Shown here: positions 24,301 to 63,159 of the stretch, piece by piece
How positions within the stretch are numbered: position 1 is the stretch's first letter
How the letters are laid out: every line of letters begins with the position of its first letter
The notes under the pieces: generated by a model
Database searches by the model: none
Seen by the model: the letters and a program-made list of their open reading frames with translations, nothing else
Told to the model about the DNA's origin: nothing
Made by a program: the position numbers and the translations under genes
From: Serripes groenlandicus
Lineage: Eukaryota > Mollusca > Bivalvia > Cardiida > Cardiidae
Assembly (NCBI GenBank): GCA_031761405.1
Contig: JASEVX010000010.1
Coordinates: 35,006,753-35,070,752 of the forward strand
DNA: 64,000 nt
Direction: 5' to 3'

Positions 24301-24479
24301 AATATTGACCAAGAAATATGTAAACTACACTACAAAGAAATCAATCTTTGAAGACGTTCAAATTGACAGTAATGTTTAAGGAAAAAGAAAATTTGATGTA
24401 TTCTCTGATACAATATTTATCAAAACTTTGAAAAGTTAATTGTCTGCTGCCAGAGCATCAAATGTGAATATTGTTTTTT

Positions 24480-39800: not shown

Positions 39801-42800
39801 TCACATTTAAACGAGATGAGGATGTCATAAACAAGGCGAGTCCGCAGCATTTCCATGAAGTTGTTGTGAAAGCAATACAAGATTACCGACTGTGTTTGAA
39901 CGCCCATTCATTGCGCTTTTGCGTTTACAACAAGGACCTGTTTAATTATAACGAACCGTTGTTCAGATTCGGGGTAACTACATATACGTTTATTAATGTT
40001 TTCCCTTAATGTACTATATATGGAATATGTACTTTCCATCATTGATCGTGTATTAGTTACTGTACATTAAGCGAAGATTTTCAGAAATGTTTCAAAGTCA
40101 TTATATAGTTTTCTGGACATCTTAATTTATTTTTTCGGAGGACTATACACTTGAGATTATTTTGATAATGTATTGAATGAGAATGAGAGAATATAATACC
40201 AGAGGACTAGATAAGAGGGATCGAACTGGTCTTTTCCCCACACTATTTATCGTATTTCTCAACAAAATCCTATGTATTGAGTACTCAAAAGAATCGTCTC
40301 ACTAAGACGGTTCTTTTGAGTACCCACAACATATGGTTTGAATATCAAATAAGGATTTGAGAACATGAAAAATGTACGTCATCTAGAACTCTGATAGTAC
40401 CATATCTCACTATACGAGTTGAAATAGTGTTGGCTCTCTCTAATCAAATTATAAAATATGTTGCTACATGACTCTGGGTTTTACTTTATATTTATCTGTT
40501 ACATGTATGTGAATAGCTGCAATTTGAGCTGAATATTGCAACTTGTTGTATTTTAATGTTATGTAAAGCCGAGTGCGAGTGCAAAAAACACAGAAAAGTT
40601 AAGTTCCTAATGTGCCCGGGACACATGTCGTCTGCTGCAGTGGCGTCAGACAGCGACTATATGTGAAAACTACCTGTTATTAATTGATTGAATGGTGCTT
40701 AACGTCGCTTTCAACAATGTTTCAGTGATATCATTGCGTACAAGTAATACTGGTCCTTTTATCCTGACACTAGTCAGTCAGTCGTAATGATAACCTGCAA
40801 CCATGAGCGCCAAGGAGGGCAGCCATTACTACCATGTATAAGTATTTGGTATGACCCGGCCGGGAATCGAACCCGTGATCTCCCGCACCCGAGGCGGATG
40901 ATCAACCATTACACCACCAAGGGGGTTCCTGTTACATGACAATAGTTAATAATTAAAAAAAGGGAGATACATACACATCTGTTGCATGTTTGTTTGGTAA
41001 CACTGTACAATGAAGATAGTATAGTTCATGTAAAAACGGCATTACGTGTAAGTCTATCCGTTAGTTTTATCAGTATGTTCAATTCCAAGTACAAGTAAGA
41101 TGATTTTCTCAATTCGATTTTTTATCTATTTCTCTATTATCTCACTTTTTTATTATGAATGCATAGAGATAATCAACAAGTATGCAACGTAGGAAACCTT
41201 CACAAAGAGGAGTAAACTGGATCTTGTGTATATCATATAGCTCAATTACAACTAATATACAGTCTAAGATGTAGGCATGATGTTACAGATATTGTGAGAA
41301 CCCGCAATACATAGGCATTGGTTCACTTGGTTGAGTGCATGAGAACATGTACAAGTTGGCATATCTGAACAGTGTAGGTTAAGATCATCGTATCCATCTG
41401 CTCACGATCTTCTAACAAGTTTGTTTTCGTATTGTGTGAACAGTGTATATCGCGATCAGAGAGTGCGGATACACACAGTTTGATAGGGATCTTTGATGTT
41501 CACAAAAGCCAGCTTGAACCCTTTTCTCTTGCATTGGCTCAATTTAATTAGGATTTGAGACCATGGAATGAGTAAACTATTTAGATATTTGTTAAATAAT
41601 AACGATTTAGATATGGTAATTATTTAAAAATAAAAAATCTAGGATAAGCATTATAGATACCGATGGGTATGTTATGTTGGTACCAAAAGCACACACACAA
41701 CAACTGTTTGCATATTACTTTCGTTTATAAACGCCTCTGTCTACTTGTGTAGATTCTGATAAGGGGTACCAATTTGTACATTGTCTACTTGTGAAGATTA
41801 TGATAAGGGGTACCAATGTGTACCTTGTCTACGCGTGTAGATTCTGATAAGGGGAACCAATTTGTTCCTTGTCTTCTTTTATATATTATGATAAGGGGTA
41901 CCACTGTGTACCTTGTCTACGTGTATAGATTATGATAAGGGGAACCAATTTGTACCTTGTCTACTTGTGCAGATTTTGATAAGGGGTACCAGTTTGTACT
42001 TTGTCTAATTGGTTATATTCTGATAAGGGGTACCAATATGTACTTGTGTATATTCCTATAAGGGTTACCAATTTGTACCGTGTCTTCCTGTGTAGATACT
42101 GATAAGGGTAACCAATGTGTACCTTGTCTAATTGGTTATATTATGTTAACGGTTACCAATTTGTACCTTGTCTACTTGTGTAGATTCTGATAATGTGTAC
42201 CATTTTGTACCTTGTCTACTTGATTATAGTCTGATAAGGGGTGCCATCTTGTTTCTTGTCTACATGTACTTGGCGAGATTCTGATCATGGGTACCCATGT
42301 GTTCCTTTTATACTTGTGTAGATCTGGGTAAGGGGTACCAATGTGTAATTATCTACTTTCGTTGGTTATATTCTGATAACGGTTACCAATTTCTACCTTG
42401 TCTACTTGTGTAGATTCTGATAATTTGTACCATTTTGTACCTTGTCTACTTGATTATAGTCTGATAGGGGGTACCATCTTGATCCTTATCTACATGTACT
42501 TTGTTAGATTCTGATAAGGGATACCAAGGTGTACATTGTCTATTCGTGTAGAGTCTGATAAGGGATACCAATGTGTACCTAGTCTGCTCGTGTAAAGTCT
42601 GATAAGGGATAACAATGTGTACCTTTTTTACTCGTGTATAATCTGATAAGGGGTACAGCTGTGTAACTTGTCTACTTGTGTCGAGTATGATGTGTTAAGA
42701 GGTACAGTTAAGAACATCATAAAATTGACAAATTTACCGTTCACGATCTGTTCCGTTCCTTTCATTTCCGCTCCGCTCACGTTCCAATCCGCTCTTAAAG

Positions 42801-45800
42801 CGTTCTGTCCTTCAAATCATTGTGATTACTTTTTTCCGTTCCGATCAAATTAAATTTTTACGCTCACTGAGAATGCTTTTGTTCGATCAAAAGTAGTTTC
42901 GTAAAATAATTATCTAGTAGATTGTTGCAACCGCTCAATGAGCGAAGCATTCATGTGTTTGGAATCTTTCATTCCGTCTGATTGTTTTGTTCAGAACGCA
43001 AAATTCCTTTCCGCTCTAAAAGCGTTCCTACTTCGTTCCAATCACGCACACGATCCAATCACGTTCTACTTAGATTGTCAATTGCATACTGTACTTAACT
43101 GTCAATCTCATTAAAATCAGACCAAAAAACTTCTATGTACGTATATATTGGATCTGACTACAGGTCATATTAGGTCGTCTCAAATTGACCCAACTCATTT
43201 AAATAATCATAAGCCGGTGCTCGTTTGTTTGTCCAATGAAATCGCACTATACAACAAACGCTCGGTTTCTGCTTCAAAATGGCTGCGTCTATAGAAACAG
43301 GAGAAACGATCGAGAATGTTTTACATCAATTCGAAGTGCAAAAGTTTAAGCCTGAACAAAAGCAGATATTTCACTGCATTTGGTTCGGTAGAGATTGCAT
43401 AGCTGTTTTGCCTACAGGATACGGAAAATCGTTACCATATCAGACAACTATTTCTGCAAAGAGCCTTGAAAATCAGTCATATATGGGAAAATTATCGTTT
43501 GTTGCCTATTGGTGTCATTGATGGAATATTAAGTGCATCGTATCAACGGATCTAAAGGCGATTTACAAAGGTATAGTGTATGTTATTATTTTTATCTTAT
43601 ATCATTACTTCATTATTAATTTACCTGTGAAGTGATAAGGTTATTACACGATATTGGTTAAAATTCTTACAAATGTGAAAGTACCTGACAAAATAAATAA
43701 GGTAGATCTAAAGAAATTTGAATAATGACTGACAATATGTAATTTCAGCAACGTATCTGTAGTTTAATTTAATATGTATTGATTCATTAAATGATCCATT
43801 GCTGCTAGTCATGTCATAATGAATGTGAAACTATTTGATATTAACATTGTCTATATTTTGATAGAAAATTTAAGACATTCATTCCATGTTCATTTTGGCT
43901 TTCACATTTGTGTCCTCTTGCAAAGAAATAGACTAAGCAAAAACTACATATGATTTGTTGAAGCAATCAAACTGCAGTGGATGGATTCCAACGTTTACAA
44001 ATCCATACAAACAGGGACTACTTGTAGTCCCAGGTACATATAACATTTTTGACACAGACTGTTGACCCTATCCAACCTAAAGACCCATTTTGACGCATCT
44101 GCAACAGATGACTTTTTGAAAACAAGCAATTTCTCATTTTGCCACAATTTTTCAACTTTTTTTCAGTAATTATACCTTTATTTCTAGAGATTTTCTATAT
44201 ATTGAGTAGATGTTTTCAAAGGAAACAGACTTAAACCTTTCCAACAAACACACGCTTTCCGACGCCTATGCAGCAGACGACTTTAGGAAACTTTAGGGGT
44301 TAAAATATAAACATAATAATGATAATTTAATATAACATAGAATGTTTACTTTGCTTCCCTAACTAGCCAAACCCATGTTGACATATCCCTATTTGAATAC
44401 TTTTCATTTATTGCAGGTGAAAGTGTTGAAGGTGATGAACAAATAAAAAATGGTGATTTTGACACTATGTTTGCTTCTCCTCAATCTGACTAAAGTACAC
44501 GATCTGACCAAATGTAAGCGTTAATAGGAGATGATTTTAATGAGATAGTCTGATTGGCTTCGCCTGAAACTTTGGTTGGGGACAAGAACTGGAGATTAGT
44601 TATACAACAGTGCAATGTATCCCTTCTGGTGATTGATGAATTCCACACAGTAACTAAATGGTTAGTATGAGCTGTATTAAACCTTTCCCACATACAACAT
44701 ATCTGCAGCAAGTAACTTTGCAAACATCAAAGTGAAATGTAAAAAATATTTAAAGATGAAGGGATTTATAACCTTTGTAAATCTAGGAGTTGTGAGTTAG
44801 AACCCCAGCTCTGTCAACATTCTTTCCAACGTTTGACATGCATCACTGAGACAAGCGTAGTTCGTCTTCCACATTATGGGCTTACTGTCTATGTTTAAAA
44901 CCAGCCAGTTACTTCAGTTTAAAACCCTTTCCCTCATACAGCAATTCTGCAGCAGACGACTTTAAACGTATTTTGTCAAAAAATAGAAAATCTCCATAAT
45001 TGAATGGATAACCTATGACAAAAAGTGGAAAACATTGTGTCAAAAGAAATAATTGCGTGTTTTGTGCAATTTTTTTCTTTTGTCACTATGTTTTCAAAAA
45101 GCCGACTGCTGGAGATGCGTCAGAAAGCGTCTATATGAGGGAAATATTAAGGGTTAAATCATTTAAGTCAGGAGACACATGTAAAGATGAACTTGTTGTC
45201 GTGATATAACTGCAATATTGTAGAAAATGGCGTTAAACCCCAAACCAATTAAGAAGAATTAAAAATGATTTGTCAAAAGTAGAAATAGCTCATCCTAAAT
45301 TTGTCTGCTGCATATATATGTGTCAGAAAGCTCTGATACGACTGGATGTCATGCAGTCTGGTTTGAATGATAAGAAACTAAGCACATAAATGTTCCTTCT
45401 GTTTTTAAGAATAGTGACATGAGCCTATCAAAGGACCATCCTCTAAAGCCATGCATGTACCTTTTAATATGAACAAGTGTATGAAAGGGTACCGTTAAGG
45501 AAGATAGCTAGTGTGTTATGGCTTCAAATTTCACTTTTAAAGTCATTCTTTTCTTCATCCAGACAACATTTGAAGCCTTTGCAGCAGATGACTTTTGAAA
45601 ACATTGTGGCAAAACATTGTGAGCAATTTCGCAGTTTGCCAAAATGTTTTCAACTCTATTCAATTAACTAATTATCATGTAGATATTTTCAATAGTTTTG
45701 CATAGTTTTGCAAAGTTGTGTTCTGCTGAGTTGCAGTTTGTCACAAAAGGTTAAAGATCAACTTTGAAAAAGCTGACTAAACCCATATCAATTTTAGAAT

Positions 45801-48800
45801 TGAAAATTATTGAAGACAAAGAAACAAATAATTAATTTCTAAACTTATCTTTCAGGGGTGAAGATGAAAGGGGAAGAGCAGCCTTCAGGAAGTGGTTTTC
45901 TAACATTGGGGAGCTTAGAGCATTGTGTACACAGAAATGTCGTCGACAAGAAGCATTGTCTTTGTTTCTTACAAAGTTCGAACTTTCACCCCTTGCTCTG
46001 ACATGTAATGTTCATAGTTGCTGTGATGTCTGTGAACTATCATGTAATTGTGGTAATTGCCAAAAGTTGCCGTTTGAAAACATCTTTCTAGATTACGATG
46101 CCAGAAATAAAGAACCTAGCGAAGAAGTTGAATCCAACTCTGATACAGTATCACATAAATCTTCCGATTCTGATAATGAGTAATTTATGTTTTTTCCACA
46201 CTATTTTCAAATTTCGCAGTTGATTAACCATACTAGGGTTTTAAGAGATTTTCCAATTTTTTCAAAGTAAAATAGTCTGATCAGACTGTGACATACTCAC
46301 AATATTATACAACCCTTTACCACATGAATAAACCTTGTTGATATCAACCAAAAGAGAGTGATTTGACTAAGTTTAACAGTATACCTCTACCACCTCAGTG
46401 CTTTGAGACAGAAATGGTAAAAAACATGATCAGTATGCGAGATATTTACAGTCTGATTGTTTTGCTGATTGTTCTTGGGTGGTAAAATACTGTAAGTATT
46501 GCATACAACATTATGGGAGAGAGCATTGATCTACAAGGTATTACATAATATGAGAATTTAATTTTTCAATATTTGGTGAAATAACAGATCTCCCTGCACA
46601 TGTAAGTTACATAATCAAAATAGACACTATTTTTCAGAATTTTAATCAAAGCTTTTATTAACAAACAGATGTCCAGATAAGGAGGGGTATTCAGCTCTTT
46701 TCCGCACAATTTCTCTTTTATTATTAAAGCAAACCCTATGTTGTAGGTACTCAAAAGAATCATCTCACTGAGACGATTCTTTTTGAGTACCCACAACATA
46801 GGGTTAGAGGGTCAAATAAGGACTTTAGAACATGCAAAACGCCCCTTATCTAAAGCTCTGGACAAACAGTGCAGATCCAGATTAGATGACATATGCGTAG
46901 GTTGATCTAAGGTGACCATTTTTGAACATTCCCTAAGGTTGCTTTTCCTAGACCAGAGATTTGCAACCTAAATTGATCACATTGCCTGAAATAGACAAGT
47001 GTTCTGACAAGCTGTGTATACCAAGATCAGTTATTGTGTACAACATAATAAAACACAGTGTTTTATACTTGGACATAAATAAATTGATACATGTATATGT
47101 TAAAACAAAATGTACAGGCTTATCTTGACATTAGTAACCAATTATGTGTCAAATGTAACCATTTCCCACTTATAGATGCAATATAGATAGATGCAATTTG
47201 ACACATCTCCAGTAGATGACTCTTGTCACATTGTGGCAAAAGAAGAAATTGTTCTTGGTGGATAATTTCTCCTTTTCCACAAGTTTCTCAAATCTATTCA
47301 ATTATCATACTTTCATTTAAAGAGATTTTCCATGATTTTTGGCCGGATTGCTCTAGCAATTCCGGTCTATAGATTGGCGATGTCCGTCTGTCCGTCAACA
47401 TTTTGGTTAAAGTTTTAGGTTGAGGCAAACTCTCAGCACTGGAAAGGGTTACAAACTTAAAACTTTGCCTGAAGGTAACCAGTAACAAGTTCTATTGATT
47501 TATATGGTTACTTTGACCTTGACCTTGGTTTGTCTATTTTCAAGGTCAAATTGCCGACAATCCGGCTTTACCGTCTTCAGCGGTTTCCTGTGTGTGTATG
47601 TTTTCAATGTATTCTGCTGCAGATTTGTTGTATGTGGAAAGGCTTAACACATTCACTAAAGTAGTCCAAGACCATTTTAAAAACATCTATGCAAAATCTC
47701 TAAAATATCATATTATAAATTTTGAATAGAGTTTTAAATCTTGTTGCAAAAGGAGGAATTGTTCATAATGATAAATTTTCTTTTTGCCACAATGTTTTCA
47801 AAATTGATCTGATGCAGATGTTTCCAAATGCGTCTTCAAAGGGGAAAGGGTTTAAGCTTGAAATGTGACTATATATGGTTATCAGCACAACATGTTCATG
47901 ATAGTCATTCATGTCTTTCCTAAGATAAGAGAAAGATTTTTATGAATCCTTTTCATAATGAGAATTTTTTAAGTGAGTAAATCTTCAGAAAACAAGTCTT
48001 AAAAATATGTACAAAGGGAAAGATTTCAATTAGATCCAATTATTACAAATTGTTATACAAAACCAGTTCAGTTGTTGTCTTATTATATATTTTTTATCTG
48101 TACATTGAAATACAAATTAATTGAAATATTATGTTATATCTAAACCCAATTGAATACATTGTGGCAAAAGTAGTGGTTTATGATGAACAAATTCTACTTT
48201 TGCCGCAATATTTTCATACAAAAAATCTTAACGCAGAAGACTGATGACCTCTTGTCAAAATGTTTGCTTATTATAAGCAATTTATCATTTTGCTACAATG
48301 CTTTTGAAATGTTGTCGGTTGCAAATTCAGCTGCTGGTTGGTGAGGGTTTATTTCTGCAAAGAGAAAAAGAATGAACTCCTATTAAGCTAGAAATGAGGA
48401 TCCTTCAAACGACGATAAGAAGTTAAAGATCTTTGTCTGTGTATCAATGTGGAAAGTCCAGATATAGTGTTTGAATATGGATTACGGGAAACATTTTTGC
48501 ATTTTACATTCCTAGTTTGATGGTGAAAGATTTCTAATTTAAATAGATCTCTTGCCACTTTGTGTGGAATTGTCAATTTAAAAACCATTAACATATAGTC
48601 CTGAAGTTCATCCTTACTTGTGACACTTGCTTTAGTATTAATCTGATAGTCATTATAACTATGTGCTTTCACTTCATGGGTTTTTAGACTTGCCACATAT
48701 GCATATGTTCTTTCACAGAAATGACATTTATAGCGTCCATTTTCAAAATTTGAGATCCAATAATTCTCAGGATTTTCACTGTCATCTATCACTTCATGCA

Positions 48801-51800
48801 AGGATGAACATATATCTGTTGAGTCTTCAAAAAACCATTGTTTTACAATACATGTGCAAACTCCATTCAACCATTCTAATTTCTCTGCATTTGTCATACC
48901 TGTGAAATTATCTGGAAACGGCACTTTTGGAAAGTTTTCCGAGTTGTCTGGAATCGTGTCAATACCTAAATGATTCAAAAACATACTTAATGTAATGGCT
49001 TCCAATACCGCATAGTACAGCATTTTATATGCTCTATACTCATTCTTAACATTTCCCTTTACATTCCTGTAATTAAGCATATTTCTGTAGAAGGGAACTT
49101 ATCCTTTATCTGCTGCATTTTCAACACCATATGTCAATTTTGTAATAGCCTGAAAAATCAACCAAAAAAAGGGAAGCAATAAAATTTCAAATTTGTGTAT
49201 GTATCTTTAATTCTATTTTAATTTGGATCAGAATTGATACATTACTTTGTATTTCATTTACTATAGAGAATATTTTTTCCATGCACACACAATATATATA
49301 TATATCAAGATTTAATAAGGTAGTACTTCTTAAATTTGAAGTTAATCAAATATCATTGAAAGCTTATATTATCCTTTTCCCACATTCAGGTTGAGACATG
49401 ATAGACCTTTCCCTCGCATAGACGCTTTCTGACGCCTCTGCAGCAGACGGTTTTTTGAAAACATAGTGACAAAATAAGAAATTGCTCAAAATGAGAAAGT
49501 TCTCCTTTTGCCACAATGTTTTCCACTTGAAGTCATAGGTTATCCTTTCAATTATAGAGACTTTCAATTTTTTGATAAAATATGTTCAAAGTCGTCTGCT
49601 GCAGAATTGTTGTATGAGGTAAAGGGATAGCTCAGTTGAAAACCATAAGATTTTTCAATCGAGAGTTGTGAGTTTAATCTCTTGCTTGGATTTTCATTCA
49701 TTCTGATGTTTGAAGAAAATGAATGAGTGAATGTAAACTATGTATGCATTGCAGTATACCTCTAGAAAATTCATCAGCCTGTGGAAATCTTCAATTTTTG
49801 ATATAAACCCTTCCAAGCGCTCACGAGGACTCTCGGCATTTTTCATAGCCATTTGTGCACACTGAACCCTTTCATCTGTCAATCTATCACCTGTATAAAA
49901 ATAAGCATGACTGTGTTTAGATGAAAAGAACATAAGTTTTTCATTATTGCTAGAATCTTGATATTTAATATATTGGTTTATCATGAATATATTACAAACC
50001 ACTATTAAATTATGCTGTTTTTAGCTCTACTGGCCAAAGGCCAGAAGAGCTTTTGTGATGGCGTTGTGTCTGTCGTCCGTGAGTGAGCGAGTCCGTCAAC
50101 AATTGCTTGTGAACACGATAAAGTCTTTTACAGTAGTTAGATATCCATGACAGCTCAGTTCCTTTTGCAAACCAGCCAGATCCACCCATGCAAGACTGGA
50201 TTATGGCCGTTGAAATTGTCAAATTTGCTATAATAGAGCTTGTGAACACAATAGAGGCTCCATTTACTATCTGATCTTCACCAAACTTAGATAGTAGTTA
50301 AATATTGATGATAGTTCGGTTCCTTTCGAAAACCAGCCAGATGTGCCCTTCCATGACTGGATTATGGCCCTTAAAATTGTCAAAATTGTAAAAATTGCTA
50401 TAATACAGCTTGTGAACACAATACTATCCAATCTTCACCATAAATACATGCTCTGGATTGAAAATGACAGTAGAGCATAGGCCCTTGTTGGCCTCTTGTT
50501 TAATAAGAAGGCTGTGTGATTGTGTGGCTGTATTGTTCACCAGCTTGACACTTACTTCAGATGAGTATAAGACCAGCAGAGTATAGCTATGTTAATTTTA
50601 CTCTATAAATGAAACCAGTGCTAAGCCATTCCCACACTCAGTCACTTTTTGATACCTATGCAGCAGGTGATTTCAAAAGAATCTGGAAAATGGAGAAATT
50701 ATTACAATGAACAATTCCTCCTTTTGCCAAAATGTCGTCATCTTTTTTCCCATTATTGTTCTAAAAGTTATAGTGAGTGTCCATTTGTTGAAGCATAATG
50801 TTTTTAAAGTTGACCGCTGCAGATGTGTTGTATTTGGGCAAGGGTAAGTGGGTTGAAAACATGATATCTTGGCTTGTTTTTTCTAATGAACCTTACCTCC
50901 AAAGAAAACCGGCTCAACAATTTCTTCATTTACCATTGGCACATACTTCTCTGTCAAATTTTTCAGTAGCTGAATGACATCTTGAGTTTTGTTTTCATTA
51001 CAGTCAATCAACCCAAGAGGAAACTGAAAGCATAAACTTTGTTGTATATAGTTAAATTATAACTTGCCCACATAAATACACCAAGCCATGTATTTTAATG
51101 AATCATCAAAGCTATAAATGATCATTCCAACTCAGGCTTGTGTTATTGGACAGAGTATTAAATAACATTATGGCTATTTAATTTAAACAAAATTAATACA
51201 TACACCATCATAGATTTAATTGAATAAAATATAATGTAATACTGAAAGAACATTGATTAAACACTCAAAGAAGTGGTATTGAATGCTGTTATTTGTTTTG
51301 AGTGTGTATAATGTAAAGTGAATAAAAGGATTAAAATATAAATTATCACACAAAAAGATTAACCCTATGCTCTCTAACATACATGATTCATCAAATCAGC
51401 AGGACAATACTGAAATAATCTATAAGAAAAATTATGAGAAAATCTCTGAATTAAATTGTTAAAGTCAAAAAAGGAGTTGACACCATTGTGGTAAAAAGAA
51501 AGACTGGTCATTTTAAAACAATGACACTCCTACTTCTCCTTGTCCAGTCTTTGTGTTGAAGATCTTTTATCAAATAGGTTTATGTGATAAATTGATCATT
51601 TAAAAGCAGTAACATTTAAGAACATTGTTTAAAATTTCAAGAGATAAAGTGAGACATAAACCAGGTGTTTAGGTCCAAGGTGTAGGCCTTGTCCAGGCTT
51701 GATCTTAATGATTGTTACACCGGCATACATTGTATTCATTTATCTGAGAAAATATAGTTTTTAGTTTGTTGAATCAACAATATATTTTATGTCAATTATG

Positions 51801-54800
51801 TGTAAAGATACATAATGTTAAAAGGTTTGTCAACTGTTTCCATATCATTTAACACCTGTTGTGTCCTATATAAAATACATAAGCATGTATTTAACATCTG
51901 TTAAACACTCCCAATATTGTGAATGTGTGGTACCAAGTCAAGAATGGTATAACTTCTTTTAAATCTTACCTTTTTTTATGTGTTGGAGAGGAGCGATTTG
52001 TACACCATGGGTTGCAGTTGTAAATTCTTTTAACTGTAAAGGATGTTTCACACTCACTGCAGGGAACCTCTTGCATGGCTGTGTATGTTGTGGGGAAGAC
52101 AACAACCTCTTCTCACTAATTGATCTGACACCCTGATTAATCTTTAAAAAAAAAAAGAGAGGTTCCTTAGATTCACAGAAATCGACCGAAATCAACTTTC
52201 ACTAACTGAAATCTACTTTTATTTTTAATGTTATGATTTATGTTGTAAACTTGAATATAAATCAATAATGATACATTTGTGTTAACATGTAGTTTCTATA
52301 TTTGTTAATTGAAATTTAAAACTTGCTGAATATTTTAACAGGGTGAGAAATTTATGATATTTTGTTATAATTCAAAGCAAAAAAACATACTGGCTCTATA
52401 GTATTCACAAATGTCAATGTCGTAATTATTTAAAGAATCGCGAAAAATCACGAATGATAAAAAGAAAACATTATCATACCTCTTTTACTTTCATTCTGTT
52501 GTCTCGAATCTCGGTTCTTATTTTTTCCATCTTTTTATCAAGCTTTAAATGGTTGTCACATTGTTTAAAACATCGAACGCAGATGGTATAATCACCTTCC
52601 TCGATGTCGCTGACAGTTGTCATTTCTCCGTGTTGCAACGCTTTGTTAATTACAACGATACGTTCTTTCGAAAGTTTTAATTTCATATGAAACAGTTTGT
52701 TTTCTTTTTTTCTACCTGAACTCGTTAAAAATATTTCCCTGGACGAAAACCCACACATAAAACACTTGTCGTTAAATAAATAAACTTTGTTTGGCGTTAG
52801 TAGAAGATTCGCCTGTTCTACGGACGAATATTCTACGGACGCCATTATTCCTTTGTTTATTCCAATACAACCGGAATACCCTATAGTTACCGCTTCGCCT
52901 TTTCGTTCTTTCTACATTAGTTACTATACTTGAATCGTACTGCCTATTTTGGTAAGCGACAATTTGATTGGCTAACGCAAAGGTCAATCTGAGACGACCC
53001 GTATAGGGAAGTCATCAGATCTATATACGAGTGTGCGAGTTAAGATCTGGTTTTAATGAGATTGCTTAACTGTGTACCATTGTGTACATTGTCTACTTGT
53101 GTAGAGTCTGATAAGGGATACCGATGTGTTCCTTATCTACTCGTGTAGAGTCTGATAATGGGTACCAATTTGTTCATTTGTGCTTGTGTAGAGTCTGATA
53201 AGGTGTACCAATTTGTACCGTATTTACTCGTGTAGATTCTGATAAGGAATACCAATGTGTACATTGTCTACTTGTGTAGAGTCTGATGCTGTGTACCAAT
53301 GTGTTCCTTGTCTACTCGTGTATAGTCTAATAAGGGATACCAATGTGTACATTGTCTACTTGTATAGATTCTGATAATGGGTACCAATGTGTTCCTTGTC
53401 TAATCGTTTATAGTCTAATAAGGGGTACCAATGTATTCCGTGTCAACTCGGGTATAGTCTAATAAGGGATACCAATGTGTTCCTTGTCTACTTGTGTATA
53501 GTCTAATAATGGGGACCAATGTGTTCCGTGTCTACTCGGGTATAGTCTAATAAGGGATACCAATGTGTTCCTTGTCTACTTGTGTATAGTCTGATAATGG
53601 GTACCAATGTGTTCCTTGTCTACTTGTGTAGAGTCTGATAATGGATACCAATGTGTTTCTTGTCTACTCGTGTATAGTCTAATAATGGGTACCAATGTGT
53701 TCCTTGTCTACTCGTGTATAGTCTAATAAGGGATAGCAATGTGTTCCTTGTCTACTCGTGTAGAGTCTGATAATGGGTACCAATGTGTTCCTTGTCTACT
53801 CGTGTATAGTCTAATAATGGGTACCAATGTGTTCCGTGTCTAATCGTTTATAGTCTAATAAGGGGTACCAATGTATTCCGTGTCTACTCGGGTATAGTTT
53901 AATAAGGGATACCAATGTGTTCCTTGTCTACTTGTGTATAGTCTAATAATGGGGACCAATGTGTTCCGTGTCTACTCGGGTATAGTCTAATAAGGGATAC
54001 CAATGTGTTCCTTGTCTACTTGTGTATAGTCTGATAATGGGTACCAATGTGTTCCTTGTCTACTTGTGTAGAGTCTGATAATGGTTACCATTGTGTTTCT
54101 TGTCTACTCGTGTATAGTCTAATAATGGGTACCAATGTGTTCCTTGTCTACTCGTGTATAGTCTAATAAGGGATAGCAATGTATTCCTTGTCTACTCGTG
54201 TAGAGTCTGATAATGGGTACCAATGTGTTCCTTGTCTACTCGTGTATAGTCTAATAATGGGTACCAATGTGTTCCCTGTCTAATCGGGTATAGTCTAATA
54301 AGGGATACCAATGTGTTCCGTCTCTACTCGGGTATAGTCTAATAAGGAATACCAATGTGTTCCTTGTCCACTCGTGTATAGTCTAATAATGGGGACCAAT
54401 GTGTACCTTGTCTACTCGTTTATAGTCTAATAATGGGTACCAATGTGTTCCGTCTCTACTCGGGTATAGTCCAATAAGGGATACCGATGTGTTCCTTGTC
54501 TACTCGTGTATAGTCTAATAAGGGATACCAATGTGTTCCTTGTCTACTCGTGTAGAGTCTAATAATTGGTACCAATGTGTTCATTGACTACTTGTGTAGA
54601 GTCTGATAAGGGATACCAATGTGTTCCTTGTCTACTTGTTTATAGTCTAATAAAGGATACCAATGTGTTCCTTGTCTACTCGTGTAGAGTCTGATAATGT
54701 ATACCAATGTGTTCCTTGTCTACTCATGTATAGTCTGATAAGGGATACCAATGTGTTCCTTGTCTACTCGTGTAGAGTCTGATAATGGGTACCAATGTGT

Positions 54801-57800
54801 TCCTTGTCTACTTGGGTAGAGTCTGATAAGGAATACCAATGTCTTCCTTGTCTACTTGTGTAGAGTCTGATAATGGGTACCAATGTGTTCCTTGTCTACT
54901 CGTGTATAGTCTAATAATGGGGATCAGTGTGTTCCTTGTCTACTCGAATATAGTCTAATAATGGGTACCAATGTGTTCCGTCTCTACTCGGGTATAGTCT
55001 AATAAGGGATACCAATGTGTTCCTTGTCTACTCGTGTATAGGCTAATAAGAGATACCAATGTGTTCCTTGTCTACTCGTGTATAGGCTAATAAGGGATAC
55101 CAATGTGTTCCTTGTCTACTCGTGTAGAGTCTGATAATGTGTACCAATGTGTTCCTTGTCTACTTGGGTAGAGTCTGATAAGGAATACCGATGTGTTCCT
55201 TGTCTACTTGTGTAGAGTCTGATAATGGGTACCAGTGTGTTCCGTGTCTACTCGTGTATAGTCTAATAATGGGGACCAATGTGTTCCTTGTCTACTCGTT
55301 TATAGTCTAATAATGGGTAACAATGTGTTCCGTCTCTACTCGGGTATAGTCTAATAAGGGATACCAATGTGTTCATTGTCTACTCGTGTATAGGCTAATA
55401 AGGGATACCAATGTGTTCCGTCTCTAATCGGGTAAAGTCTAATAAGGGATACCAATGTGTTCCTTGTCTACTTGTGTAGAGTCTGATAATGGGTATCAAT
55501 GTGTTCCTTGTCTACTTGTGTAGAGTCTGATAATGGGTACCAATGTGTTTCTTGTCTACTCATGTATAGTCTAATAATGGGTACCAATGTGTTCCTTGTC
55601 TACTCGGGTATAGTCTAATAAGGGATACCAAGGTGTTCCGTCTCTACTCGGGTATAGTCTAATAAAGGATACCAATGTGTTCCTTGTCTACTCGTGTATA
55701 GGCTAATAAGGGATACCAATGTGTTCCTTGTCTACTCGTGTATAGGCTAATAATGGGTACCAATGTGTTCCTTGTCTACTTGGGTAGAGTCTGATAATGG
55801 GTACCAATGTGTTCCTTGTCTACTTGTGTAGAGTCTAATAATGGGTACCAATGCGTTCTGTGTCTACTCGGGTATAGTCTAATAAGGGATACCAATATGC
55901 TCATTGTCTACTCGTGTATAGTCTAATAATGGGGACCAATATGTTCCTTGCCTACTCGTTTATAGTCTAATAATGGTTACCAATGTGTTCCGTCTCTACT
56001 CGGGTATAGTCTAATAAGGAATACCAATGTGTTCCTTGTCTACTCGTGTATAGTCTAATAATTGGGACCAATGTGTACCTTGTCTACTCGTTTATAGTCT
56101 AATAATGGGTACCAATGTGTTCCGTCTCTACTCGGGTATAGTCCAATAAGGGATACCGATGTGTTCCTTGTCTACTCGTGTATAGTCTAATAAGGGATAC
56201 CAATGTGTTCCTTGTCTACTCGTGTAGAGTCTAATAATTGGTACCAATGTGTTCATTGACTACTTGTGTAGAGTCTGATAAGGGATACCAATGTGTTCCT
56301 TGTCTACTTGTTTATAGTCTAATAAAGGATACCAATGTGTTCCTTGTCTACTCGTGTAGAGTCTGATAATGTATACCAATGTGTTCCTTGTCTACTCATG
56401 TATAGTCTGATAAGGGATACCAATGTGTTCCTTGTCTACTCGTGTAGAGTCTGATAATGGGTACCAATGTGTTCCTTGTCTACTTGGGTAGAGTCTGATA
56501 AGGAATACCAATGTCTTCCTTGTCTACTTGTGTAGAGTCTGATAATGGGTACCAATGTGTTCATTGTCTACTCGTGTATAGTCTAATAATGGGGATCAGT
56601 GTGTTCCTTGTCTACTCGAATATAGTCTAATAATGGGTACCAATGTGTTCCGTCTCTACTCGGGTATAGTCTAATAAGGGGTACCAATGTGTTCCTTGTC
56701 TACTCGTGTATAGGCTAATAAGAGATACCAATGTGTTCCTTGTCTACTCGTGTATAGGCTAATAAGGGATACCAATGTGTTCCTTGTCTACTCGTGTAGA
56801 GTCTGATAATGGGTACCAATGTGTTCCTTGTCTACTTGGGTAGAGTCTGATAAGGAATACCGATGTGTTCCTTGTCTACTTGTGTAGAGTCTGATAATGG
56901 GTACCAGTGTGTTCCGTGTCTACTAGTGTATAGTCTAATAATGGGGACCAATGTGTTCCTTGTCTACTCGTTTATAGTCTAATAATGGGTAACAATGTGT
57001 TCCGTCTCTACTCGGGTATAGTCTAATAAGGGATACCAATGTGTTCATTGTCTACTCGTGTATAGGCTAATAAGGGATATCAATGTGTTCCGTCTCTAAT
57101 CGGGTAAAGTCTAATAAGGGATACCAATGTGTTCCTTGTCTACTTGTGTAGAGTCTGATAATGGGTATCAATCTGTTCCTTGTCTACTTGTGTAGAGTCT
57201 GATAATGGGTACCAATGTGTTTCTTGTCTACTCATGTATAGTCTAATAATGGGTACCAATGTGTTCCTTGTCTACTCGGGTATAGTCTAATAAGGGATAC
57301 CAAGGTGTTCCGTCTCTACTCGGGTATAGTCTAATAAAGGATATCAATGTGTTCCTTGTCTACTCGTGTATAGGCTAATAAGGGATACCAATGTGTTCCT
57401 TGTCTACTCGTGTATAGGCTAATAATGGGTACCAATGTGTTCCTTGTCTACTTGGGTAGAGTCTGATAATGGGTACCAATGTGTTCCTTGTCTACTTGTG
57501 TAGAGTCTAATAATGGGTACCAATGCGTTCTGTGTCTACTCGGGTATAGTCTAATAAGGGATACCAATATGCTCATTGTCTACTCGTGTATAGTCTAATA
57601 ATGGGGACCAATATGTTCCTTGCCTACTCGTTTATAGTCTAATAATGGGTAACAATGTGTTCCGTCTCTACTCGGGTATAGTCTAATAAGGGATACCAAT
57701 GTGTTCATTGTCTACTCGTGTATAGGCTAATAAGGGATACCAATGTGTTCCGTCTCTAATCGGGTAAAGTCTAATAAGGGATACCAATGTGTTCCTTGTC

Positions 57801-60800
57801 TACTTGTGTAGAGTCTGATAATGGGTATCAATGTGTACCTTGTCTACTCGTGTAGATTCTGATAATGGGTACCAATGTGTTCCTTGTCTACTCGTGTAGA
57901 GTCTAATAATGGTACCAATGTGTTCATTGACTACTTGTGTAGAGTCTGATAAGGGATACCGATGTGTTCCTTGTCTACTTGTGTATAGTATAATAAGGGA
58001 TACCAATGTGTTTCTTATCTACTCGTGTAGAGTCTGATAATGTGTACCAATGTGTTCCTTGTCTACTCATGCATAGTCTAATATGGGATACCAACGTGTT
58101 CCTTGTCTACTCGTGTAGAGTCTGATAATGGGTACCAATGGGTGCCTTGTCTACTTGGGTAGAGTCTGATAAGGAATACCGATGTGTTCCTTGTCTACTT
58201 GTGTATAGTCTAATAAGGGATACCAAACTGTTCCTTGTCTACTCGTGTATAGTCTAATAATGGGGACCAATGTGTTCCTTGTCTACTCGTTTATAGTCTA
58301 ATAATGGGTACCAATGTGTTCCGTCTCTACTCGGGTATAGTCTAATAAGGGATACCAATGTGTTCCGTGTCTACTCGTGTATAGTCTAATAAGGGATACC
58401 AATGTGTTCCTTGTCTAATCGTGTAGATTCTAATAATGGTTACCAATGTGTTCATTGACTACTTGTGTAGAGTCTGATTAGGGATACGATGTGTTCCTTG
58501 TCTACTTGTGTATAGTCTAATAAGGGATACCAATGTGTTCCTTGTCTACTCGTGTAGAGTCTGATAATGTGTACCAATGTGTTTCTTGTCTACTCATGTA
58601 TAGTCCAATAAGGGATTCCTATGTGTTCCTTGACTACTCGTGTATAGTCTGATAATGGGTACCAATGTTTTCCTTGTCTACTTGGGTAGAGTCTGATAAG
58701 GAATACCGATGTGTTCCTTGTCTACTTGTGTATAGTCTAATAAGGGATACCAAAGTGTTCCTTGTCTACTCGTGTAGAGTCTGATAATGGGTACCAGTGT
58801 GTTCCTTGTCTACTCGTGTATTGTCTAATAAGGGGTACCAATGTGTTCCTTGTCTACTCGTGAAGAGTCTGATAATGGGTACCAATGTGTTCCTTGTCTA
58901 CTTGGGTAGATTCTGATAATGGGTACCAATGTGTACCTTGTCTACTCGTGTAGATTCTGATAATGGGTACCAATGTGTTCCGTGTCTACTCGTGTATAGT
59001 CTAATAATGGGTACCAATGTGTACCTTGTCTACTTGTGTTGAGTCTGATAATGGGTACAAATGTGTTCTTTGTCTACTCGTGTAGAGTCTGATAATGGGT
59101 ACCAATGTGTTCCGTGTCTACTCGGGTATAGTCTAATAAGGGGTACCAATGTGTTCCTTGTCAACTTGTGTAGAGTCTGATAATGGGTACCAATGTGTTC
59201 CTTGTCTACTCGTGTAGAGTCTGATAAGGGATACCAATGTGTTCCTTGTCTACCCGTGTATAGTCTAATAAGGGGTACCAATGTGTACCTTGTCAACTTG
59301 TGTAGAGTCTGATAATGGATACCAATGTGTACATTGTCTTCTTGTGTAGAGTCTGGTAAAGGGGTACCAATTTGTACCTTGTCTACTTGTGTAGAGTCTG
59401 ATAATGGCTACCAATGTGTTCCCTGTCTACTCGTGTATCGTCTAATAAGGGGTACCAATGTGTTCCTGGTCTACTTCTGTAGAGTCTGATAAGGGATACC
59501 AACGTGTACATTGTCTACTTGTGTAGAGTCTGATAACGGGTACCAATTTGTACCTTGTCTACTTGTGTAGAGTCTGGTAATGGGTACCAATGTGTTCCTT
59601 GTCTACTCGTGTATAGTTTAATAATGGATACCAATGTGTACCTTGTCCCAAGGAATATTTGAACATGTTATTCATATTAAGGCATATCATTTGCATGGGA
59701 TAACAACATATTCAAACAATAATGAACTAGTATATCATAACAAATTAAAACAAATATTTGAGATCATTATATAAGGAAACACTAGGCTCATGCAGTCGTA
59801 TGGCAAGAATTGAGATCATCTATAATATAAGGAATGTTAGGTATTCGTATATTTATTATTATTGAAACTTTTATGAAATGGTTTTACAAATTAAAGCTAA
59901 TTTGACAAGTTTTTTTTTATATCCTAACAGTTCATAATATTTTTAAGTTATAGGATGGTTATGATTATATTTCGAACAATATTTCATTAATTCCTTAATA
60001 AAATTATTTCACTCGAACAAATAATGAAACCCTTCACCACTTCTATTATTATTACACTTAGTTGCTTACGTTCAATTCCAAGATGGCGGGTTTCGTGCTA
60101 TTTACAGATTCTTGAAAATCAAGCCAATCTTAAAAGTCCAGTACATGTGGTCTTTGTTGTTGCATTGTATCTAGTAAGAATAATTTATAAAAAAAATACA
60201 TATTTAAAATGAAAAGAGAACATATCCGAAATAAATTGTGTTGTTCAAACATTGTGACCCACCAATGTGATACAGTCTTCTGAAGATGGATAGCAAATAT
60301 GAACCGTTTCGCAAGAAAACCAACATTGTGGACTCTGCTTAAGGTATCAATCCGGATCCGCCGAAGCATGCTAACCTTGATATATACTTCTCGCCTCCTG
60401 TAGATTGTCTGTTTCAAGAATCATTACTCTATACATCTATCCCACTGTTGGCCCGGCTGATATAGGTCGATTCATTATGCAGATTCCAAAATGTTGGTTT
60501 TCTCGTGGAAAAGCTAATATTATTAAATGTTTACTAAATTATAATTAAACTCTTAAATAACGATGTATTCCATTTTTTCTAGTTTTCCCTATCAGACGGC
60601 ATGTACCATGTGTTTATGGAAGAACTGTTACGGCTGTTTCCAAGGGAACAGATACATGTGATGAAATCAAAGGAGATTGGTTCACGTGACTCGATCAGAC
60701 GTTTGTTTGGATTTCTCGAAATGAGTTGAGTAACTTCTTCGAATATAGAAAGATAATGTTCTATGAAATATAAAACAAAGCATTTTATTTCTTGACAGTA

Positions 60801-63159
60801 GGTGAACATGTGTTTATGGAAGAACTGTTACGGCTGTTTCCAAGGGAACAGATACATCTGATGAAATCAAAGGAGATTGGTTCACGTGACTCGATGGTAC
60901 TTATGTTTGGATTTCTCGAAATGAGTTGAGTAACTTCTTCAAATATAGAAAGATAATGTTCTATGAAATATAAAACAAAGCATTTCATTTCCCGACAGTA
61001 AGTGAACTGGCTGCCGTGATATGACTGCGAACAATTGTTGAAAACGGCGTTTAACCCCAATCTAACAATCAGCTACAATTGGCCTTATCAAGCATGGATG
61101 ACAACATGTTGACACCTTCTCTATGCAAGTCAATGTTCTGTTCTGTTCAACACTTTTCTTTTCTTTTCTCTGTCTTAAGTTCAAACCATATTCATATAAA
61201 TAACTTAATTAACACATCACGTGTGCGTAATCAAAGCGCCGAAGGCACGTTAGTGGCGATCGTGTAGAAAATCCTGCAAAGAAACAAGCAGTATCTCGGT
61301 GTAGGCTTTGCGGTGTTAAAACCCTAAACTGTTGTATGTACTCTAAGCTAATTTTGATGGGTTATCACATGTTCATCAACAGGTCGCTCGGCTATATTAA
61401 GATAACATATATGTTATACTTTAGAGATCACATTTTCGAATTAAACATGCTGTAACCCTGTGACAGAATATTGTACGAATTGCACCACACGCCACCTCAT
61501 CATGGTGATCGTGTGTGCCCGGTAACTTGAACATCCTATTCTGCATGGTTAAGATGCGGGCCGGAGAAGTCAGTCCTATCAAACAGTACTAATTTTGACA
61601 TTTGACCTCTACGAGTGACCTATTACGCATGGTTAAAATGCTGGTCGGACAGACAGACTCATGGACGCACGGACACACTCACTGAACCGCCATTGTGACA
61701 GCTATATATCGAGCTCACCACCAACAGACTCGACAAAATGTGATTTCAGATAATAAAATGGTTATCAACAGTCAATAAACAACAGGCTACTGAACAACCC
61801 TTTCCATCATATCAAACTGAATTTTACTAATTAAGGTGATATAGCTCTGGCATAACTGGAGGAAGTTGACTTGAAAGTGAGTCTGTCCCTGAAATTATTC
61901 TCTTATACAGTCACACCTTTGCTAAAGTCACCTTTGTTTAGTAATATGCTGTCTATAGCAACCAACTTCTTATTTCCCAATTACTCATGTTCTGCACAAA
62001 TGACCCTGTAATTAACCCTTTCCCAAATACAGACGTTTTCTGACCCCTCTGCAGCAATTGAAAACAAGCAATTTCTTCTTTTGCCACAATGTTTTCAATT
62101 ATGTTTAGTAATAACCTACATTTATAGCACTTTTCCGTGTTTTTGCCTGGATATTCCAAAAAGCATCTGATGCAGATGTGTTGTATGTGGGAAATGGTTA
62201 AAGACCACCCGATTGTTCTCTGCTCATGGATAGTCTTTAGAAACAGGTCTGCTCAAGTAAAATAGGAACATGTTAAGTGGAACTTCTCATTCTTAAACCT
62301 AGGCCGGTTTATTGCTTGTGTTAGAAGGTTTAAATGTATGAGAATTTCGGCACAAGCTTGCACAGGCTTGCACAAGCAGGCGATGCCTAATGTATGGGCC
62401 GAGCATCTATTGGCATGATCTTACAAGACTCATGCGTCATACTTTGCATGGCTGATAAAACGCGCAATGATATGTATTATCTGCCTAAACATGAAGAGTG
62501 CTTATATTTACCTCTTTTATCTCAATGAAGATCGTAAGCTCGATACATCTCAAATCTTAGTATTAATCCGGTGCCAACCAAACGTCGGATGACCTAACGG
62601 GCACCTGCTTACTATGTCACTCCTCAATAGGCGTATGTCTCGCACAATAATATTCTCTGTCTCCAGACACGAAGAAGGCTAATGTTTACATTGTTTCACT
62701 TAATTACATGATAGTTCGATAATTCTTAAATCTTGGTATCAATCTTGTACCAAAATAGCACTAACAGTATTATTGTTAACCATGTCTCTGCAGAAATATG
62801 TCATAGTACAGTGGCTATTGTTACCACAATCACCACAAAAAGTGCAGATCCTGATCAAAATGTTGATAAGCGCAGGTTTATCTGAATGAATCTAGACTGG
62901 TCGTAAAATGATCGAACTGAATGATGGATGTTTATTCTTCTCTGTTGTTTCAATAGGTCGGGTGTCTGATGTTAAATTGGAATACATGACAAAAACAAAA
63001 ATAACCATAAATGAGCGGCTGAACTATTTCAAGTCCAAAGGACCGATGCTGAATACGACACAAAATATACTGTACGAGTTTTACAGACCATACAACGAAA
63101 GGATGGCGGCTCTCACTGGAGATGGTGATTTTCTATTCAAAATGGCGGACTTGGTTTAA
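30624..63159 (+). CDS. Sulfotransferase copy 2 (CHST15-like), start to stop
   Basis: Type II membrane sulfotransferase expected in the Golgi, using PAPS to sulfate a glycan. Exons: 30624-30806, 32605-32800, 35331-35447, 38373-38529, 39781-39973, 60583-60700 and 62957-63159. A 69-nt candidate exon at 31044-31112 also fits in phase. Without it the protein has 388 residues. The first exon gives six basic-rich tail residues and one membrane span (residues 7-25). The catalytic part has the PAPS loop FIIGVKKCGTTALY and the 3'-phosphate motif RDPVDRLYSDYYF. The six 3' exons have the same lengths and phases as copy 1 and no internal stop. The intron at 39974-60582 is 20.6 kb, against 5.8 kb in copy 1, through array growth and a ~10-kb transposon, so efficient splicing is not assured. 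Confidence 0.85.
31044..31112 (+). CDS. Candidate 69-nt stem exon
   Basis: Between ATCAGAG and GTATATC a 69-nt stretch (23 codons, phase 0 at both ends) would add NPQTSMLYRCIFSLCYGR and CFDSK. It fits in frame between exon 1 and VPWTYDERF. Support is only the splice sites and the phase. I have no second copy to compare with. Confidence 0.3.
31590..32604. other. Left end of duplicated block, copy 2
   Basis: Aligns with 80-1317. Within this 1-kb stretch the only named structure is the 65-bp hairpin (32045-32110). Confidence 0.65.
32045..32110. repeat. Palindromic repeat, partner of 656-720
   Basis: Same inverted ends (GGGGGCCGTTTTATCA and TGATAAAACGGGGCCC) and the same centre as in copy 1. 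Confidence 0.75.
32605..32800 (+). CDS. Copy 2 exon with 5'-PAPS-binding loop
   Basis: Same sites and length (196 nt) as copy 1. Carries GVKKCGTTALYCYQIKHPES. Compared with copy 1, the residues next to the loop change most (N to C, L to Q). Confidence 0.9.
33870..34030. mobile_element. 161-bp palindromic MITE in copy 2
   Basis: Arms of about 75 bp: GTTTAATTAACATTG, CGGGATTTAAATCCC, AAGAGATTCTTGC and GAGTGCGC on the left, mirrored on the right around CATA. Together with the following sequence to about 34470 it is absent from copy 1 (near 3880). Confidence 0.9.
34148..34188. repeat. (TA)n flanked by inverted GTGACGTCAC
   Basis: GTGACGTCAC at 34148-34157 and again at 34179-34188 enclose about 20 bp of alternating TA. 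The whole is close to a perfect palindrome. TGACGTCA is the CRE consensus, but no role can be shown here. Confidence 0.85.
34850..34950 (+). repeat. tRNA-derived SINE relic, partner of 4372
   Basis: GCGATAGCTCAGTTAGTA and GTGTCGATCC, as at 4372-4475. Confidence 0.5.
35331..35447 (+). CDS. Copy 2, 117-nt exon
   Basis: Acceptor TTCCTTACAG, donor GTAAGT. Encodes NKTGDIYAYVRMFSNASKK to YVNKYIF, phase 1 at both ends. Confidence 0.85.
35448..38087. other. Intron of copy 2, no gene seen
   Basis: Contains a ~75-bp direct duplication (about 36583-36650 and 36661-36730, core ATCGGGTCGTCAGGGCCGTA). A single remnant of the 60-bp satellite (about 37018-37062) lies where copy 1 has its 2.9-kb array. It otherwise realigns with copy 1 from 37061. 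Confidence 0.6.
38088..38356. mobile_element. Palindromic MITE, family 1, abutting exon
   Basis: ATATGAGTC at the left and GGTTCATAT at the right. Partner of 9067-9300. Confidence 0.75.
38373..38529 (+). CDS. Copy 2, 157-nt exon
   Basis: Acceptor CATAACAG, donor GTGAGC. Encodes DGSTTYINLNHHWKTMPGN to IMAVRDPVD. A family 1 MITE ends 16 bp upstream, as in copy 1. Confidence 0.9.
38647..38828 (-). mobile_element. tRNA-derived SINE, copy 2 only
   Basis: On the minus strand the head reads GTGGTGCATAGGTAGAGCGT, then GGTCCCGGGTTCGAGTCCC (A and B boxes). It is flanked by ACAAGCAC at 38639-38646 and 38829-38836. Copy 1 has the empty site near 9560. Confidence 0.75.
39675..39770. repeat. 20-bp tandem repeat before splice acceptor
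   Basis: About five units of GGGTCATTAGTTTCAGAATT type, partner of 10385-10500. Confidence 0.8.
39781..39973 (+). CDS. Copy 2, 193-nt exon
   Basis: Acceptor CGTTTCAG, donor GTAACT. Encodes LYSDYYFTFKRDEDVINK to NYNEPLFRFG. It is preceded by the same 20-bp tandem repeat as in copy 1. Confidence 0.9.
40198..40402. mobile_element. MITE family 3 copy
   Basis: Ends CCAGAGGACTAGATAAGAG and the mirrored CATCTAGAACTCTG. The centre is a hairpin, GAGTACTCAAAAGAATCGTC and its complement, which ends TTTTGAGTAC. Related to 46671-46863. Confidence 0.75.
40676..40926 (-). mobile_element. tRNA-derived SINE (~250 bp)
   Basis: On the minus strand the head reads GGTGGTGTAATGGTTGATCA, then GCCTCGGGTGCGGGAGATC and GGGTTCGATTCCCGGCCGGG, resembling a proline tRNA with a CGG anticodon loop. 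The acceptor 5' strand does not pair with the 3' strand, and a long body follows, so it is a SINE and not a tRNA gene. Confidence 0.75.
40930..41734. other. Intron of copy 2 before the 44-bp array
   Basis: No coding content. The last 150 bp align with 10940-11100 of copy 1. Confidence 0.5.
41735..42703. repeat. 44-bp array, left part in copy 2
   Basis: About 22 units, more diverged than those to the right of the transposon. The array is cut at 42703 by a small inverted-repeat element and resumes at 53074. Confidence 0.92.
42704..43102. mobile_element. ~400-bp inverted-repeat element
   Basis: The left end ACAGTTAAG (42704-42712) is mirrored by CTTAACTGT (43094-43102), and AATTGACAA follows about 12 bp inside both ends. 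The body is rich in CGTTCC and CCGCTC motifs and codes for nothing. Its 3' neighbour in the array is now at 53074 because the large element split off there. A 2-bp GT flank is the only visible target duplication. Confidence 0.7.
43103..43190. repeat. Left terminal inverted repeat
   Basis: Starts CAATCTCATTAAAATCAGA and ends GGTCGTCTCAAATTGACC. Pairs with 52982-53064 allowing gaps and changes. Confidence 0.8.
44085..44300. mobile_element. MITE family 2 copies inside helicase intron 1
   Basis: GACGCATCTGCAACAGATGA at the left, then a second partial copy with GACGCCTATGCAGCAGACGA. Part of the family seen at 24480. Confidence 0.55.
44926..45155. mobile_element. MITE family 2 copy inside helicase intron 2
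   Basis: Ends AACCCTTTCCC and AAGGGTT, with CTGCAGCAGACGACTTT mirrored by CCGACTGCTGGAGATGCG. Confidence 0.65.
45560..45755. mobile_element. MITE family 2 copy inside helicase intron 2
   Basis: GCAGCAGATGACTTTTGAAA and the central hairpin around GTGAGCAATTTCGCAG. The right end contains GTTCTGCTGAGTTGCAG. Confidence 0.6.
46671..46863. mobile_element. MITE family 3 copy
   Basis: Ends GTCCAGATAAGGAGGGG and CCCCTTATCTAAAGCTCTGG. The centre is a long hairpin, ACCCTATGTTGTAGGTACTC and its complement. Confidence 0.8.
46864..48387. other. Space between the convergent genes of the element
   Basis: No coding content. Holds family 2 MITE pieces at 47165-47345, 47595-47860 and 48165-48340. A dispersed repeat at 47340-47590 starts GGCCGGATTGCTCTAGCAAT and includes TTTGACCTTGACCTTGG. 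Confidence 0.55.
48388..49149 (-). CDS. DUF6589-like gene exon 5, C2H2 finger
   Basis: Acceptor TTTTTCAG, phase 0 entry. It begins AITKLTYGVENAADKG, then a TAA stop (49101-49099), then VPFYRNMLNYRNVKGNV in the same frame. The C2H2 finger has C-x2-C and H-x4-H spacing in CHFCERTYAYVASLKTHE and its continuation VKAH. Confidence 0.7.
49375..49627. mobile_element. MITE family 2 copy, fullest example
   Basis: CTTTCCC and GGTAAAGGG ends. GACGCTTTCTGACGCCTCTG then CAGCAGACGG on the left, and GTCGTCTGCTGCAGAATTG on the right. The centre AATTGCTC and CTTTTGCCAC is as in other copies. Confidence 0.75.
49624..49695 (+). repeat. tRNA-derived relic
   Basis: GATAGCTCAGTTGAAAACC (A-box-like) and GTTGTGAGTTTAATCTC (B-box-like). 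No clover-leaf by eye. Confidence 0.45.
49760..49890 (-). CDS. DUF6589-like gene exon 4, signature motif
   Basis: Acceptor TTATACAG, donor GTATAC. Encodes GDRLTDERVQCAQMAMK, then SPRERLEGFISKIEDFHRL. Confidence 0.75.
50024..50505. repeat. Dispersed repeat in DUF6589-like intron
   Basis: Starts AGCTCTACTGGCCAAAGGCC and has two ~185-bp units, each with AAACCAGCCAGAT and GACTGGATTATGGCC. The ends are partly inverted (AGCTCTACTGGCC and GGCCTCTTG). It falls between exons, so it is a later insertion into the element or a passenger. Confidence 0.6.
50625..50850. mobile_element. MITE family 2 copy
   Basis: CATTCCCACACTCAG at the left, TATGCAGCAGGTGATTTCAA, and GACCGCTGCAGATGTGTTGT at the right. Confidence 0.6.
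50897..51023 (-). CDS. DUF6589-like gene exon 3
   Basis: Acceptor GCTTTCAG, donor GTAAGG. Encodes FPLGLIDCNENKTQDVIQLL to EEIVEPVFFG. It joins the next exon in phase to form GGDRLTDER. Confidence 0.7.
51970..52141 (-). CDS. DUF6589-like gene exon 2
   Basis: 172 nt, acceptor TTTTAAAG, donor GTAAGA. Encodes INQGVRSISEKRLLSSPQH to LQHIKK, a basic, proline-containing linker typical after the zinc module in these proteins. It exits in phase 1, which does not match the next exon found. Confidence 0.5.
52480..52845 (-). CDS. DUF6589-like gene exon 1, zinc-binding start
   Basis: 122 codons, phase 0 exit, donor GTATGA. Cysteines at CFMCGF (about residues 29-34) and CVRCFKQC (about residues 98-105) suggest a metal-binding domain. 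The start ATG lies 137 bp inside the right terminal repeat. Confidence 0.75.
52982..53064. repeat. Right terminal inverted repeat
   Basis: On the plus strand it starts GGTCAATCTGAGACGACC and ends TCTGGTTTTAATGAGATTG, the complement of the left repeat. Confidence 0.8.
53074..59645. repeat. 44-bp array, right part in copy 2, with higher-order repeats
   Basis: About 150 units of the 44-bp repeat. Marked variants recur at exact multiples: GTCCAATAAGGGATACCG at 54469 and 56141 (1672 bp, 38 units), AATCGGGTAAAGTCT ending at 55440, 57112 and 57772 (1672 and 660 bp), and TAATCGTTTATAGTCT at 53401 and 53841 (440 bp, 10 units). The far right (58900-59640) returns to units like those of copy 1. Confidence 0.95.
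59646..60296. other. Intron of copy 2 after the array
   Basis: Aligns with 13753-14268 and then 16083-16214 of copy 1. The empty site of the 1.8-kb insertion is at about 60140. Confidence 0.7.
60297..60520. mobile_element. Palindromic MITE, family 1, shortened
   Basis: Partner of 16215-16479 with part of the middle deleted. Confidence 0.65.
60583..60700 (+). CDS. Copy 2, 118-nt exon
   Basis: Acceptor TTTTTCTAG, donor GTTTGT (weaker than GTATGT in copy 1). Encodes GMYHVFMEELLRLFPREQIH to SRDSIR. The phases fit exons 39781 and 62957. Confidence 0.85.
60804..60896 (+). pseudogene. Partial duplicate of the 118-nt exon
   Basis: Repeats the exon from HVFMEELLRLFPREQIH to SRDS but lacks the first ~24 nt and the acceptor. 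The upstream CTTGACAG would enter with an in-frame TAG. The end runs into GGTACTTATG and not the normal donor. It is therefore not a usable alternative exon. Confidence 0.75.
61221..62828. mobile_element. ~1.6-kb insertion in last intron of copy 2
   Basis: Copy 1 (17728-17760) and the third terminal exon (18700-18720) read across this place. ATCAC lies on both sides (61216-61220 and 62829-62833). Contents: no coding content seen, and a family 2 MITE at 62015-62200 (GACGTTTTCTGACCCCTCTG and CATCTGATGCAGATGTG). No terminal repeats are clear. Confidence 0.5.
62957..63159 (+). CDS. Copy 2 terminal coding exon
   Basis: Acceptor TTTCAATAG, 203 nt to the TAA stop. Encodes RVSDVKLEYMTKTKI to GDGDFLFKMADLV. 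The AATAAA found after the other two terminal exons reads ACTAAA here. Confidence 0.88.

Follow-up and report, generated by a model that had tools for sequence, protein, structure and literature searches.

We asked whether the DNA between positions 43103 and 53064 of a 64,000-nucleotide stretch (the window, whose coordinates are used throughout) is a single mobile element, and if so, what kind of element it is. An earlier note on this DNA had described it as a transposon carrying a RecQ-like helicase and a DUF6589-like protein. We found the ends of one element with remnants of both genes between them, and we think it probable (roughly 0.83) that they are what is left of an AcademH-type DNA transposon, now dead and with internal deletions, in what is probably a mollusc genome.

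Ends of the element and repeats in and around it

The element is 9,962 bp long. The limits given in the earlier note held: an exact pair of the 9-mer CTTAACTGT lies directly outside the terminal inverted repeats (TIRs), as a target site duplication (TSD) would (Table 1). On the + strand of the window this 9-mer, which contains TTAA, stands at two places, the two flanks of the element, and its chance of occurring at a given place is 6.5e-6 by base composition. We searched the window for exact 9-bp direct repeats abutting a perfect 12-bp TIR, 0.2-30 kb apart. The sole pair found was the two ends of the element, whose termini are CA..TG.

The whole TIR is approximately 83-88 bp long and includes a second conserved block inside the first, with 46-51 bases of lower similarity between the two blocks. 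The outer blocks, the first 19 bases at each end, are identical in inverted orientation at 18 of 19 positions, and the inner blocks at 17 of 18. As a control for the inner blocks, we compared 400,000 pairs of random 18-mers from the window, one of each pair reversed; none reached 17 of 18, and the best reached 15. Scanning the window with a 19-base TIR pattern and allowing up to three mismatches gave three matches (0.07 were expected by chance), two of them the element ends with no mismatches and one an internal site with three. The scan located one copy of the element within the window.

The 19-base pattern also matched three viral contigs, where likeness to the element ends stops after approximately 20-23 bases. 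None of 11 query proteins matched these contigs. Given the short likeness and the lack of a protein match, we read these matches as chance and not as true relatives.

Several families of repeats are found in the window. A 44-bp tandem satellite (consensus TGTCTACTTGTGTAGAGTCTGATAAGGGGTACCAATGTGTACCT) forms three arrays, at 11104-13757, 41738-42681 and 53074-59647. The largest of these abuts the right TSD, and 412 bp separate the left TSD from the end of the array to the left of the element. A dispersed repeat of up to ~220 bp occurs many times, in both orientations, in the non-coding parts of the element (44062-44310, 44923-45144, 45567-45705, 47189-47340, 47681-47835, 49402-49643 and 50626-50860) and also outside it (24482-24704 and 62012-62201). 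Its longer matches are 67-86% alike, and the copies probably arose when a small mobile element inserted itself. Another repeat has two copies in the window, 46696-46860 and 40230-40393, that are 78% alike; the first contains a near-perfect hairpin with arms at 46732-46756 and 46781-46805. There may also be a nested insertion in an intron of the DUF6589 gene, at 50026-50500 (limits read by eye), with internal direct repeats at 50132-50253 and 50293-50423 that are 79% alike. Elsewhere in the window we found a 60-bp tandem repeat in two arrays (5442-7397 and 7925-8350), a 55-bp tandem repeat that forms three distinct arrays (21022-21660, 27436-28861 and 63633-63924), and seven copies of a 156-bp tandem repeat (23211-24294), across much of which a 270-codon reading frame (23567-24379) is open. 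A search of the window against Rfam, at the gathering threshold, was negative.

Table 1. Features of the element, in window coordinates
Feature	Position	Strand	Basis and details
Left 9-bp TSD, CTTAACTGT	43094..43102	.	exact direct repeat
Left TIR	43103..43190	+	outer block 43103-43121, inner block 43173-43190
Helicase N-terminal remnant, motif I (VLPTGYGKS)	43279..43544	+	two tblastn pieces with P0065, E 1.2e-16
Helicase remnant, motif II (VIDEFH), internal stops	44416..44661	+	tblastn with P0065, E 8.9e-10
Helicase last exon remnant	45856..46183	+	tblastn with P0065, E 0.001 and 1.9e-11; acceptor AG
DUF6589 last exon, C2H2 finger	48388..49149	-	tblastn; acceptor AG; one internal stop
DUF6589 exon with GDRLTDER and IEDFH	49760..49890	-	tblastn ~49906-49751; borders from AG and GT
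DUF6589 exon with DCNENKT motif	50897..51023	-	tblastn 51026-50895; borders from AG and GT
DUF6589 probable second exon	51973..52143	-	frames read by eye and likeness to P0055; no BLAST match
DUF6589 first exon, Cys-containing N-terminal domain	52480..52845	-	tblastn; start codon by reading
Right TIR	52982..53064	-	outer block 53046-53064, inner block 52982-52999
Right 9-bp TSD, CTTAACTGT	53065..53073	.	exact direct repeat

Remnants of two convergent genes

The two convergent, intron-containing genes reported in the earlier note are real, and AG/GT was present at every exon border inspected. The helicase gene begins on the + strand with an ATG at 43279, which is 176 bases in from the left end, and the DUF6589 gene begins on the - strand with an ATG at 52845, which is 219 bases in from the right end. 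Both genes have decayed and have lost parts by deletion. Because both hold stops and lack large parts, this copy of the element cannot be autonomous. In this single copy, the TSD, the TIRs and the way the genes are laid out support the proposal that both genes belong to one mobile unit.

The helicase remnant is, by sequence likeness, of the RecQ type. We compared the window to P0065, a 504-residue protein from Argopecten irradians that is named RecQ-like and carries the DEAD and Helicase_C domains. Among solved chains, the best matches of P0065 are WRN, RecQ and BLM (E 3.9e-32 or better). By tblastn, P0065 matched the window in pieces at 43240-43473, 43485-43544, 44416-44661, 45863-45925 and 45929-46159. 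The N-terminal remnant changes frame between the first two of these pieces and then runs into a stop. Its first 80 residues match Pfam DEAD at E 5.1e-5, which is below Pfam's own cut-off. In the last exon, a late piece of DEAD is fused directly to the C-terminal Cys-rich tail, and residues 217-414 of P0065, including Helicase_C (284-388), had no tblastn match in the window. A search for relatives with words from exon 1 alone gave 11 candidates and two matches, P0065 being one of them; the two are RecQ-like gene models in two other molluscs.

The joined exons of the second gene match PF20231 (DUF6589) with E 1.3e-19; the piece with GDRLT alone matches at E 3.2e-5, below Pfam's own cut-off. The first exon was found by tblastn with P0042 (52797-52480, E 2.6e-15) and with P0010 (52797-52489, E 2.6e-10), and P0055 was also among the relatives that matched the region 52797-52480. 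The exon with the DCNENKT motif is 73% identical to P0001 (E 8e-15), and in the last exon the stretch 49158-48559 shares 52% identity with P0001 (E 5e-64), with a further match at 48564-48391. Two parts of P0001 had no tblastn match in the window: residues 1-271, which include the conserved GDNWD motif, and residues 550-686.

We found 64 relatives of the DUF6589 protein by protein search, with 36-86% identity over the aligned parts. All 48 that came with an organism name are from molluscs, namely bivalves and the gastropod genera Haliotis and Patella; the remaining 16 are rows without an organism name. These relatives are the ground on which we place the window in a mollusc. A profile search in which the best 8,000 candidates were scored gave at least 76 relatives, and the family may be spread more widely. 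In Ostrea edulis there are six clusters at 90% identity (P0009, P0020, P0034, P0035, P0067 and P0068), and many relatives within a single mollusc species are as expected of mobile genes. By tblastn, neither P0001 nor P0065 nor the alignment A1 had a relative in the viral contigs.

We aligned 40 of the 64 relatives, all of which match DUF6589. Among the acidic residues conserved in 90% or more of letters are those of NWDKN, DCNE, GGDRLTDER, IEDFH and DEYVE. IEDFH is followed by a C2H2 finger, and this in turn by the C-terminal acidic motifs. This arrangement would suit a DDD/E core with an insert. The suggestion that the protein is a DDE transposase is plausible, given the near invariance of GDRLTDER and IEDFH among the aligned relatives.

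Kinship of the element

An element with this pair of genes had been thought to be possibly new. However, AcademH, a branch of Academ that carries a helicase and makes TSDs of 9 or 10 bp, is already in print (PMC10045372; the source reference, as cited by other papers, is Kojima 2020, Mobile DNA 11:15), and Academ with a RecQ helicase was mentioned in 2013 (PMC3627910). DEAD and Helicase_C helicases have also been traced in part to AcademH (PMC10799480), and Academ is reported to have been amplified in bivalves (PMC10294476). The element described here pairs a helicase gene with a presumed DDD/E transposase gene, and has an exact 9-bp TSD in its one copy and an inferred animal host, all as in AcademH. 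It differs in that this copy is decayed and without large parts of both proteins. Because the kind of helicase, the TSD length, the TIRs and the probable host agree with AcademH, we read the element as a dead copy of that type. AcademX, which would belong to the same superfamily as the element if the Academ reading is right, encodes a nuclease and has TSDs of 3 or 4 bp, in contrast to the 9 bp found here; the difference between the two lineages has been linked to the encoded helicase or nuclease (PMC10045372). We found no nuclease domain in the pieces of the element that were scanned. The identification of the DUF6589 protein with the Academ transposase is by association.

Several results count against AcademH. 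The element is seen in a single copy. Although it has lost parts, it measures 9,962 bp, compared to a mean of 5,565 bp for the Academ consensus elements in a survey of bivalves (PMC10294476); the inserted repeats may explain part of this excess. The same survey gives the superfamily as nearly restricted to bivalves, whereas the DUF6589 relatives include those gastropods named above. There were two relatives of the helicase and 64 of the DUF6589 protein, from searches of very unequal reach. In addition, the A1 profile had no sequence match to any solved transposase: its 11 matches to solved structures at E<=1 (best E 0.053) were zinc fingers or chance-level chains.

Alternatively, DUF6589 could be a separate, unnamed transposase superfamily that has a DDD/E core of its own, split by a zinc finger, and a two-block TIR. 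Its pairing with a RecQ helicase would then have come about without Academ, and the design of a helicase plus a 9-bp TSD would have been reached on its own. The tie between DUF6589 and Academ is not direct, and we found no mention of DUF6589 in the literature searched. It would then be a coincidence that TSD length, helicase type and (inferred) animal host all match those given for AcademH (PMC10045372, PMC3627910), and we regard such an independent origin as unlikely.

Two known groups also share features with the element. RecQ-carrying Kolobok elements exist (PMC9587614), among them KolobokH and Kolobok-1_CCri, the latter with RecQ on the complementary strand. If the element were of this type, its true duplication would be the TTAA inside CTTAACTGT. 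However, the full 9 bp repeat exactly and immediately outside the matching TIR ends, in this one insertion, and the termini are CA..TG, not the 5'-RR..YY-3' that is described, with a TTAA TSD, for Kolobok. The zinc finger that is usual in Kolobok between the second and third catalytic residues has a possible counterpart in the C2H2 finger that follows IEDFH in the relatives here, but the conserved motif is E-D-F-H and not C/DxxH, the catalytic residues here being putative. A Kolobok origin thus seems very unlikely. We give even less credence to a Mutator-like (MuDR) element that captured a RecQ gene. Its TSDs of 4-10 bp (PMC10045372) would allow 9 bp, but all 40 relatives that were scanned match DUF6589, and PF10551, used as the MULE transposase domain in PMC8290104, is absent among the 25 of 27 matched families listed (E<=0.1) for them. 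The RecQ-like models in two other molluscs that closely resemble this helicase also indicate that a capture would not be recent.

A possible mechanism and its meaning

Returning to the AcademH-type reading, we can sketch how an intact relative might move. The DUF6589 protein, acting as a DDD/E transposase, would bind both blocks of the TIRs, excise the element and join it to staggered cuts 9 bp apart in the target DNA; repair would turn this stagger into the 9-bp duplication. The convergent gene at the other end encodes the RecQ-type helicase, which could unwind or remodel DNA during excision, insertion or gap repair. It may open the ends of the element or aid gap repair, which would be consistent with AcademH having longer TSDs than AcademX. 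The steps proposed for the transposase are drawn by analogy with DDD/E transposons.

The element itself looks like a dead copy of an already described kind, in which the combination of a helicase and a likely transposase is known as AcademH. What it adds is a tie between DUF6589, a Pfam family without known function and with many mollusc gene models, and a transposon that carries a helicase and is flanked by a 9-bp duplication. Should this tie be confirmed, many models annotated as 'uncharacterized protein' in molluscs, and some annotated as 'RecQ-like helicase', would be transposon genes and not host genes.
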